64,000 nt of DNA, taken from positions 1-64,000 of the forward strand of contig NZ_JAFVUX010000043.1 in the NCBI RefSeq assembly GCF_017502485.1, read 5' to 3'. Under the pieces are notes generated by a model that saw only the letters and a list, made by a program, of their open reading frames with translations, was not told the DNA's origin and searched no databases. Of the stretch, positions 5,128-7,889 are shown piece after piece. Source of the DNA: Helicobacter sp. (GTDB lineage Bacteria; Campylobacterota; Campylobacteria; Campylobacterales; Helicobacteraceae). A program made the position numbers and the translations under genes. Within the stretch, counting starts at the first letter, position 1. Every line of letters starts with the position of its first letter.

Positions 5128-5934
5128 TTATATGCTGTTATTGCGCCATGCTGTAGCAAATTCTTCGGCTATGCGTGCGTTTCTTCCACCTATTTTGGTA
5201 GCGAAGTTTAGCGCGCTTTGTCGCGATGTGCTAGACTCTTCTAAAAAGCTTTTATCATCTAAGATGTGCGCGATATGCTCTAAGTATTCTTGCATACCAA
5301 TATCATAGAATCCAATTTGTAATCCAAATCGCTCGCTTAATGCCAGCTCTTCTTGAATTATTTCATTGCTTGGGGTGAGATTCCCAGCGTGTAAAGAGCT
5401 AGATTCTAGTAGTCTGCGGAGATTAGAAGTAGCATAGAGCAGGATATTGCTAGCACTTGCTTCAAGTGAGCCTTGCAGAGTGCTCTTTAGGCTTTTGTAG
5501 GTTGGGTCTTCTTGGGAGAATGATAGATCATCGCAGAAAATGATAAAACGATAAGGCAGGTCGCGCAAGCTATCAAACACTAGAGGTAATAGGCAAATAT
5601 CCTTACTATCAAGCTCAAGTACGCGCAAAGGTGAGTTAGAATCTAGTAGATGAGGGAGCAAGGTAGCCTTGATCAGTGAGCTTTTCCCACAGCCTCTAGC
5701 ACCAAATAACAGTGCGTGTAATGCCTGCTTTCCAGCCAAAAATGCATTTGTGTTTTCTTGTAGTACTCTAGCTTGGCTCTCAATGCCAAAAAGCCTAGGC
5801 ATCTCTCCAAAATCCGTAATTGTTCGGAGGCAAAACTCTCCTGCAAAGACTCGGATTATGTAGGCTCTATGTGCGTGCCACTCTGTGTTTCCCAGTAGCT
5901 TAAAGGGTGAGTTTGTGAGAGATGTTAGACTCAT
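5128..5934 (-). CDS. DUF815 family AAA-type ATPase
   Basis: The 268-residue product has a Walker A motif GARGCGKSS near residues 77-85 and a Walker B-like FIIFCDDLSF near 130. An arginine-rich TSNLRRLLES stretch after it resembles the sensor-1/arginine region of the DUF815 ATPases, which are conserved but uncharacterised. No signal peptide or membrane segment is seen, so it should be cytosolic. Its ATG overlaps the TGA stop of the upstream csd4 (ATGA), so translation is very probably coupled to that of csd4. Expression would then depend on the csd4 poly-G tract being in frame. Function is unknown. The overlap suggests a link to the envelope enzyme, perhaps in its regulation, but this is inference. 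Confidence 0.75.
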   Translation of the reverse strand: MSLTSLTNSPFKLLGNTEWHAHRAYIIRVFAGEFCLRTITDFGEMPRLFGIESQARVLQENTNAFLAGKQALHALLFGARGCGKSSLIKATLLPHLLDSNSPLRVLELDSKDICLLPLVFDSLRDLPYRFIIFCDDLSFSQEDPTYKSLKSTLQGSLEASASNILLYATSNLRRLLESSSLHAGNLTPSNEIIQEELALSERFGLQIGFYDIGMQEYLEHIAHILDDKSFLEESSTSRQSALNFATKIGGRNARIAEEFATAWRNNSI

Positions 5935-7889
5935 TGCCCACTCTTATCGACAAACTCAAGCAATATCATACCGCCGAAGTATTCTTTATAGCCTTGAGTT
6001 TTGAGTTTTTGTGCGCTTGGGCGTGGCTGCTTGGTACTAGTGCTTGGCGCACTAGAATCTAGCGGTGCAAGCAAGCTTGCAAGGATATAGCCATTAACAT
6101 CGCGTTTCGTGCTATTGGCACCATAGACATAGTGAATTTGCGCCCATTGATTGTGCGCAGAATCTAGCCCTGCCTTAGTGGTACGCACCTCCATTATCCG
6201 CCCACGCGGGGCTTTTGCTACGATTGTAGCACTAGTGCTTGGCTCAGCGCGGATATGGGCTAGATTGACTCTTACTTGAGCAAGTTTGGAGCTATCGTTT
6301 GGCTTGGTAAGGCTTGCAAGGATATAGCCTACAATCTCGCGCTCCTGTGTGCCATTTGTATAAATGTAGCGCACCTTAAGCCATTTCCCATGTGGAGATT
6401 CTATGTTTTCTAGGACTTCTAGTTCTTTCCCCCAGCGCACCATACCAGCGATACTAGAATCTACCCCTGCGCCTGTGCGGATATTGGCTAGACTTACGCT
6501 CACACGCACACTTGAAGAAGCCAAGTCCCCAGCACTTGTGGAGCTAGAATCTACCTTTGGCGTGTTGCTAGATTCTAGTGTATTGGGGCTCTCTTCTGTG
6601 CCTAACTTCTCTTGGATATAGACTTCTGTGCGATAGAGCTTACCGGCTACATCAAGGCTTGCGCTTGGGTTTAGTGAAGCTTTTGTAATATGGCTAGAAT
6701 CCCCCCCCCCTATAAGCCCAACGACCTGCAAGCGTGCTTGGCGGTTGTCATCAAGCACTATGGTGTTAGGCAGACTTATCTCGCGCGCTATTTGCACACG
6801 CTCTCCTAGCGCGATCTTGCGCGTTTGCTTATCAATCGTGGCTTCTAGTGGGGCAAGTGATCCTTGGTAGAAGTCAATGCGCTTTGGGAGAATCTTTGTC
6901 ATCACATTGTTACCGTATTTTAGGGTTAGAGAGCCATCTCTTGGTAGAAGCCCTAGAATCTTGTTGCTTGAAGTGATGGTGATTTCACTAGCTCTTTTGC
7001 CTTTGGGGATAGGGAAGTTTGCAAGTGGGGTGCGCAAGCCAAAGAGTGGCATTTCAGGGAGATTCTCAAGCCTAAAGGTTTGGGAGTGATCCTTGATGGC
7101 TTTTTGCACATTTTGTGGTGAAAGTGTGAAATCTCGCTCAAACTCTATACCCATTTGTGTGAGAAGCGCATCGATGGCGAGTAGGTGGTAATACACGCGC
7201 TGGGCGACATTAAGCTCCTTGCTTGCTTCATTGGCATAGCCGGGCTTGCCCTGATTGATCGCATAAAATGTCAGGGCTTTTTGCATTTCTTTGTCTTTTT
7301 CAGCAGTTTGGGTATTGTGCAAATGATAGCGATGGATTGGGGCTAAGAGATGGGCATTGATATGTGCGATCATCGCGTTTGCGATAGATTCTAGTGCGCC
7401 ATATTTCGCGCCTTCTAGTGTAGCTTGATCAATGACCGTGCAGTTCCCCCAGCGATTTGGATTAGCAAGCACACTTTCAAAGTTTGGGCGATAGTATCCA
7501 CTCCCATCGTGTAAATGCAGTACCGCTTCTACTTGATTTTCTTTAATGACACTTTTGATATGCTCTATAAGCGGTTTTTCTGGGTCATTTGGGTCAATGG
7601 TTGCAAATTTGCGATTCATATCATCATAGATTCCACGATGGTTAAGTAGCATAGAGTGTGGGTTTAGCACAGGGACTATCCAAACACTACCGTTTTTAAT
7701 TGTGTAGTGATTGAGAAAAATATTTGTTGCGTTAAATCCACCGGGCTCATCACCTTGTATCCCACCGATGATAAGTAGTGTAGGGGACTTTGAGACTTCT
7801 TTTTTGATCACTTCAAAGTCAATAGGGTGCAGTGACACTGCACCAAGCAAACCTGCCAAGCAAGCCCATAGCCAAATAAATCGCATCAT
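5931..7889 (-). CDS. csd4: Csd4-type M14 D,L-carboxypeptidase with added SH3b domains
   Basis: Csd4 (H. pylori) and Pgp1 (C. jejuni) trim uncrosslinked peptidoglycan tripeptides to dipeptides in the periplasm and are needed for helical shape. A signal peptide covers about residues 1-20. The zinc site is the unusual Csd4 one: Gln45 and Glu48 in GGIQGDEPGG and His127 in LHLHDG. Known Csd4 is about 440 residues, but this protein has 652. Two bacterial SH3 domains are added, at about 461-527 and 537-610, each ending in GYILASL. They are joined by Ser-rich linkers, with a tail GYKEYFGGMILLEF. Codons 394-396 are a G10 tract; both slipped frames stop within ten codons. The second ATG (7886) is better spaced from AAGGAC than the first. 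Confidence 0.9.
   Translation of the reverse strand: MMRFIWLWACLAGLLGAVSLHPIDFEVIKKEVSKSPTLLIIGGIQGDEPGGFNATNIFLNHYTIKNGSVWIVPVLNPHSMLLNHRGIYDDMNRKFATIDPNDPEKPLIEHIKSVIKENQVEAVLHLHDGSGYYRPNFESVLANPNRWGNCTVIDQATLEGAKYGALESIANAMIAHINAHLLAPIHRYHLHNTQTAEKDKEMQKALTFYAINQGKPGYANEASKELNVAQRVYYHLLAIDALLTQMGIEFERDFTLSPQNVQKAIKDHSQTFRLENLPEMPLFGLRTPLANFPIPKGKRASEITITSSNKILGLLPRDGSLTLKYGNNVMTKILPKRIDFYQGSLAPLEATIDKQTRKIALGERVQIAREISLPNTIVLDDNRQARLQVVGLIGGGDSSHITKASLNPSASLDVAGKLYRTEVYIQEKLGTEESPNTLESSNTPKVDSSSTSAGDLASSSVRVSVSLANIRTGAGVDSSIAGMVRWGKELEVLENIESPHGKWLKVRYIYTNGTQEREIVGYILASLTKPNDSSKLAQVRVNLAHIRAEPSTSATIVAKAPRGRIMEVRTTKAGLDSAHNQWAQIHYVYGANSTKRDVNGYILASLLAPLDSSAPSTSTKQPRPSAQKLKTQGYKEYFGGMILLEFVDKSGQ
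6701..6710 (-). repeat. Poly-G (G10) tract inside csd4, candidate phase-variation switch
   Basis: Ten consecutive C on the plus strand are ten G on the coding strand, encoding Gly394-Gly396 plus the first base of Asp397. With eleven G the frame reads GGA TTC TAG and stops at once. With nine G it reads nine further codons and then TAA. The in-frame length seen here gives the full 652-residue protein. No other homopolymer of ten was noticed in the window. Confidence 0.85.

Follow-up and report, generated by a model that had tools for sequence, protein, structure and literature searches.

A poly-G tract within the cell-shape gene csd4 of a Helicobacter genome as a candidate phase-variable site

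The csd4 locus and its G10 tract

A 652-residue open reading frame within the 64-kb window (the whole stretch of DNA analysed) is an orthologue of csd4/pgp1, of peptidase family M99, and is followed by a gene for a DUF815 ATPase (Table 1). Pfam detects Peptidase_M99, the M99 beta-barrel, and two SH3_3 stretches in the protein, and structures of H. pylori Csd4 in the PDB match it at 6.9e-114. In an alignment with the PDB sequences, the metal ligands Gln46, Glu49, and His128 and the catalytic Glu222 (H. pylori numbering), as these residues are named in the description of H. pylori Csd4 (PMC4220969), are identical in the window protein. The TGA of csd4 overlaps the ATG of the DUF815 gene in an ATGA (5931-5934), as it also does at the end of csd4 in Helicobacter canis (L032) and in L034. 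From this overlap, translation of the two genes is probably coupled, and early termination within csd4 could lower the amount of DUF815 protein by uncoupling them.

A run of ten C on the plus strand of the window gives csd4 a G10 tract on its coding strand, and no other run of eight or more G or C lies within the 64 kb. The window contains three overlapping G8 matches, a number reached by 2 of 100 dinucleotide shuffles, which average 0.30. We recomputed the reading frames for the neighboring tract lengths. With G11 the product is 398 residues long and ends in GGGGF before a TAG, while with G9 nine new codons precede a TAA and the product has 405 residues. G12 and G8 give 406 and 397 residues, respectively, and G7 and G13 remain in frame and give the full-length product. 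The assembly, in the G10 state, holds the full-length (ON) frame. An initial annotation of this DNA had described a ten-G tract after the carboxypeptidase domain, an immediate TAG on gain of one G, a TAA after nine codons on loss of one, and short products of 398-405 residues; the tract does lie downstream of the M99 domain (residues 7-265), and the recomputed frames agree with the predicted stops and lengths to the residue. SSR phase-variable loci are recognized by a coding G or C tract of at least seven with early stops in both shifted frames, and the csd4 G10 has both features. It does not have the form of C-terminal phase variation of the Helicobacter canadensis type, where a tract near the 3′ end brings a short change of the tail: it occupies codons 394-397 of 652, and ~250 residues are lost on a shift.

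The tract adjoins GATTCTAG, and the TAG in this sequence terminates the G11 frame. Among the 85 tracts of G9 or longer in the host genome (G000), only the csd4 tract is placed next to this sequence. The near-palindromic word CTAGAWTCTAG is strongly over-represented in the window, for example at 6693-6701, and recalls a DNA-uptake word. The window contains 58 copies of AGATTCTAG, whereas an order-2 Markov model predicts 1.24. Its frequency is ~1 per kb at other loci of the host genome and 2 per kb in H. canis (L032), and the 227 kb searched from other Helicobacteraceae contain 6 copies.

Table 1 Features of the csd4 locus, in window coordinates.
Feature	Position	Strand	Detail	Basis
DUF815 AAA-type ATPase gene	5128..5934	-	downstream of csd4	ORF, Pfam
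csd4/pgp1 orthologue	5931..7889	-	652 aa	ORF; M99 domains; PDB Csd4 matches
Putative Ig-like domain, last strand	5934..5993	-	YFGGMILLEF, 3′ of insertion	alignment with H. pylori and Campylobacter orthologues
SH3b pair and linkers	5994..6599	-	residues 431-632, inserted in Ig-like domain	two SH3_3 stretches; alignment; splice test
Putative Ig-like domain, first part	6600..6860	-	~residues 344-430	alignment; spliced Pfam match; strand names PMC4220969
TAA stop, -1 G	6671..6673	-	405 aa	frame recomputation, coordinates counted on sequence
TAG stop, +1 G	6694..6696	-	398 aa	frame recomputation, coordinates counted on sequence
G10 tract	6701..6710	-	codons 394-396 and first base of codon 397	sequence read and frame count
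M99 beta-barrel domain	6873..7076	-	residues 272-339, tract downstream	PF17130, 7.3e-17
M99 carboxypeptidase domain	7095..7871	-	residues 7-265, tract downstream	PF17033, 2.2e-112

A probable Ig-like domain, its SH3b insertion, and the predicted effect of a slip

We aligned the window protein with H. pylori and Campylobacter orthologues using MAFFT. It tracks the Ig-like domain to approximately residue 430 and then carries a 202-residue insertion with the SH3b pair, after which the terminal YFGGMILLEF aligns to the last strand of the orthologues (FSGMILVKF, FIGMILVEF). The M99_C profile for the Ig-like domain has no Pfam match in the full 652-residue protein. With residues 431-632 removed, it matches over profile positions 4-100 of 100 at E=0.036, which is below the curated cut-off; this match is weak alone and agrees with the alignment. 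We had considered the SH3b pair as a simple C-terminal tail and rejected this arrangement after the alignment and splice test. In H. pylori Csd4 the Ig-like domain comprises residues 341-438, with strands beta19-beta26, and a calcium site around its beta23-beta24 loop uses Asn382 and Glu396 (PMC4220969). The GGG codons of the tract fall in the loop equivalent to beta23-beta24. Judged from the alignment, the SH3b pair is an insertion before the last Ig-like strand and the tract encodes a loop inside the Ig-like domain. H. pylori Csd4 (HP1075; PDB 4q6m, 4wck) shares the M99 catalytic and beta-barrel domains, the metal ligands, the catalytic Glu, and probably the Ig-like domain with the window protein, but it has no SH3b insertion, and the 438-residue orthologues examined have no G8 or longer tract. 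An AlphaFold2 model, computed from the window protein and one close relative, reached a pLDDT of 27.6 and was discarded.

The SH3b region varies elsewhere in the family. In L035 and L036 it is tandemly duplicated, with copies that are identical or nearly so, which indicates that the insertion grows and shrinks. In genus g4, the final GMIL strand is missing from the long csd4 proteins of L086, L089, and L105, which finish with SH3b domains; SH3b was thus acquired there in another arrangement.

Because the tract appears to encode a loop of the Ig-like domain, a one-base slip is expected to break that domain, and would delete the SH3b pair along with the strands corresponding to beta24-beta26. 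The initial annotation had anticipated loss of the SH3b domains and of part of the last Csd4 domain, and that is what the alignment indicates. It had also suggested a switch between wall-binding and free enzyme, which we do not retain, because the SH3b pair appears to sit within the Ig-like domain and the last strands of that domain would go too. A slip is therefore not expected to leave a stable, active enzyme that has lost nothing but its wall-binding part, and a "free enzyme" is less likely than loss of function.

The orthologous D,L-carboxypeptidase gene pgp1 of Campylobacter jejuni and Campylobacter coli also has a homopolymer in the same C-terminal domain, where a change of one base in either direction truncates the protein at ~402-407 residues and is tied to rod shape; shape phase variation has been proposed (PMC5133587). 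In the 8-A tract of C. jejuni pgp1, 7A leads to a stop at 403 and 9A to one at 408. Every examined isolate with either length was a rod, in keeping with the precedent for shape variation cited in the initial annotation (PMC5133587). The listed rods also include one with a pgp1 frameshift ending at 438, and tract-length variants were present in 3% of 859 genomes (PMC5133587). The truncation points of C. jejuni pgp1 and window csd4 nearly coincide, which by analogy supports loss of function. In several Campylobacter orthologues, a protein search and alignment locate an A8 in the strand immediately following the loop that corresponds to the window's G10; because local codons differ, a DNA pattern guessed for this A8 tract gave no match. 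We did not adopt the common position of the tracts as proof of selection, as coincidence within ~10 codons in 650 has a few-per-cent chance and was noticed post hoc.

The two genes also differ. The Campylobacter tract is a poly-A of 8 and the window tract a poly-G of 10, of a different origin, and a slip in the window csd4 removes SH3b domains as well. For C. jejuni and C. coli, real length variants are known from many strains, whereas the window tract is known from one genome. The change from helical to rod at the C. jejuni poly-A tract is common, but no return to helical was found among >525,000 colonies (PMC5133587), and poly-G should revert faster.

Tracts, mismatch repair, and the possible origin of the csd4 G10

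The host genome is assembled as 1.80 Mb in 47 contigs. A pattern search lists 85 tracts of G9 or longer, approximately one per 21 kb, with 282 overlapping G9 matches corresponding to a mean tract length of ~11.3 and a range of 9-17 G. With so many tracts in the genome, one somewhere in a 64-kb window is expected; what is notable is its placement in csd4. An automatic check of reading frames classed 48 of the 84 remaining tracts as out of frame and 36 as in frame; a few that are short or lie at a contig end may be misclassified. Tracts of G9 or longer occur, at least in some number, in all 121 Helicobacteraceae genomes searched. A profile search for MutS_I found no match in five of five genomes of the genus, while the same model matches 11 of 14 controls. 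The host genome therefore has the setting associated with SSR phase variation, many such tracts together with no detected MutS mismatch repair (85 tracts, no MutS_I).

Most of the tract genes with a Pfam assignment encode glycosyltransferases, methyltransferases, epimerases, restriction-modification proteins, or outer-membrane proteins, and csd4 is the only cell-wall-shape gene seen among them. The tract genes yielded no further peptidoglycan or shape gene, although ~12 frames were untyped or short. In one region (L128, G000:C2:22000-33800), ten G tracts lie in ~9 kb of sugar and methyltransferase genes, and six of the ten are out of frame. The csd4 tract resembles the poly-G contingency loci of Helicobacter and Campylobacter in the kind and length of its coding tract and in having out-of-frame neighbors in the host genome. 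In contrast, those loci act on glycan, restriction, and outer-membrane genes, and the window tract lies in a conserved cell-wall gene. Thus, csd4 is an unusual site for a tract that is otherwise ordinary in this genome.

The nearest named genome is that of H. canis CCUG 32756T, with ~90% identity in the Csd4 protein. At the tract site H. canis reads ATGGGCAAGGAC (codons CTT ATG GGC AAG GAC TCT), the genome G004 reads CTT GTA GGG AAG GAT CCT, and the window reads CTT ATA GGG GGG GGG GAT TCT. A GGGAAGG seed could have become G10 through two A-to-G changes and a gain of three bases. We examined 91 Helicobacteraceae csd4 loci, and a G or C run of at least eight is present in only one of them, that of the window. 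A G7 near the 5′ end of csd4 occurs in a few of the 91. Conservation of the tract across Helicobacter was considered and rejected, with the other 90 loci lacking G8 or longer. The tract is not kept at its site in H. canis, in G004, or in any other csd4 locus, and as sampled it is private to the host lineage. Its absence from relatives lowers the claim of a selected switch, and the tract may be young and passing.

All 14 genomes of genus g3 (G039-G052) lack a csd4 match, and nearly all other genomes in the family have one. G004 contains, in addition to its intact csd4, a second and broken copy (L037, G004:C5:3-1082) with two TAG and two TAA codons. In two other Helicobacter genomes csd4 has internal stops or is split into two frames (L071 in G014, L122 in G008), and these broken genes could represent natural straight lineages or assembly errors.

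Rates for C. jejuni are available for the relevant lengths, with gain at G10 of 4e-4, loss at G10 of 1.8e-3, gain at G9 of 1e-3, and loss at G11 of 2.8e-3 per division (PMC8224891). At these rates slips are fast in both directions. We calculated from them that the ON state would be left in ~0.2% of divisions and return would be as fast, and that a model without selection, limited to 7-13 G, settles at ~32% ON. All of these slip rates are borrowed from C. jejuni, and the many tracts of 13-14 G in the host genome suggest that its own biases may differ.

A proposed lineage-born contingency tract and its alternatives

The reading frames, the 85-tract genome, the lack of MutS_I, and the C. jejuni pgp1 precedent bear out the proposal of the initial annotation that csd4 carries a candidate phase-variable tract. 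The explanation that we favor, and consider probable, is that the G10 is a lineage-born contingency tract whose reversible slips yield an inactive short Csd4 and a small straight-celled minority. The tract would have arisen inside csd4 in the host lineage, and without detectable MutS-type repair, strand slippage would gain or lose one G at a high rate. Cells with G10, G7, or G13 would make full-length Csd4. Those with G9 or G11 would make the proteins of 405 or 398 residues, which keep the carboxypeptidase and beta-barrel domains, lack the last Ig-like strands and SH3b pair, and are expected to be misfolded or inactive. Untrimmed tripeptides would then stay in the wall and the cells would be straight, until a slip back restored the helix, so that straight cells would persist as a small, reversible fraction of a clone. 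Within this mechanism, we infer how fast the tract slips, that the truncated protein is unstable, and that cell shape changes reversibly. The 85 tracts, most of the others out of frame, the absence of MutS_I, and the pgp1 precedent make slippage and an effect on shape likely. That the tract is slip-prone is very likely, that the short product is inactive and the cells straight is likely by analogy with C. jejuni, two-way switching in clones is plausible, and phase variation at this tract may be maintained by selection. Against this explanation, if every cell needs csd4, frequent slips would impose a heavy load, and the absence of the tract from every relative weighs against an old, maintained switch. 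The lack of any reversion among the C. jejuni colonies also counts against it, though the tract there is poly-A.

That same absence favors a young tract, neutral or mildly harmful, that slips and decays as off cells are lost, without an adaptive switch. H. canis (ATG GGC AAG GAC), G004 (GTA GGG AAG GAT), and the other 90 csd4 loci are without it, and with at least some G9 or longer tracts in all 121 family genomes searched, a tract can land anywhere when MutS is missing. However, rapid slippage in a constantly needed gene should be selected against quickly, and the assembly has a length at which C. jejuni tracts are unstable; we regard a passing tract of this kind as unlikely on balance, although it is the alternative to which we give the most weight.

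A truncated product of 398-405 residues might instead be stable and active without the wall-binding SH3b pair, so that the site of action changes and the activity does not. The catalytic and beta-barrel domains are wholly upstream of the tract, most csd4 orthologues work without SH3b, and in Helicobacter canadensis a long G tract after the catalytic part has been proposed to cause C-terminal phase variation (PMC2823697). There, mostly a few end residues change, compared with ~250 residues lost from the window csd4 (PMC2823697). The cut through the beta24-beta26 equivalents of the Ig-like domain, and the occurrence in C. jejuni rods of stops at 403, 408, and 438 that leave the catalytic domain whole (PMC5133587), make a change of site alone improbable. 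We consider it more improbable still that the main effect of the tract runs through the gene downstream, with an early csd4 stop uncoupling translation of the DUF815 ATPase and so producing the phenotype. The ATGA overlap, also present in L032 and L034, is in its favor, but the polar effect is an assumption, DUF815 has no established link to shape, and loss of csd4 alone would suffice.

Beyond the contingency tract that we favor, a wider picture is possible but doubtful, in which poly-G puts helicity under fast two-way control with a straight minority in each clone, the DUF815 ATPase perhaps switches alongside, and the poly-A of Campylobacter and the poly-G of the host arrived separately at the same region of the enzyme. 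Bet-hedging by straight variants of spiral cells is at issue here, as return from the rod was not seen in C. jejuni (PMC5133587). With a G10 in a pgp1 orthologue, a length that slips both ways at ~1e-3 per division in C. jejuni (PMC8224891), reversible shape switching would become directly testable in one clone. If the favored explanation is true, a cell-wall gene would join a repertoire in the host genome that otherwise consists mostly of surface sugars, restriction-modification, and outer-membrane proteins.
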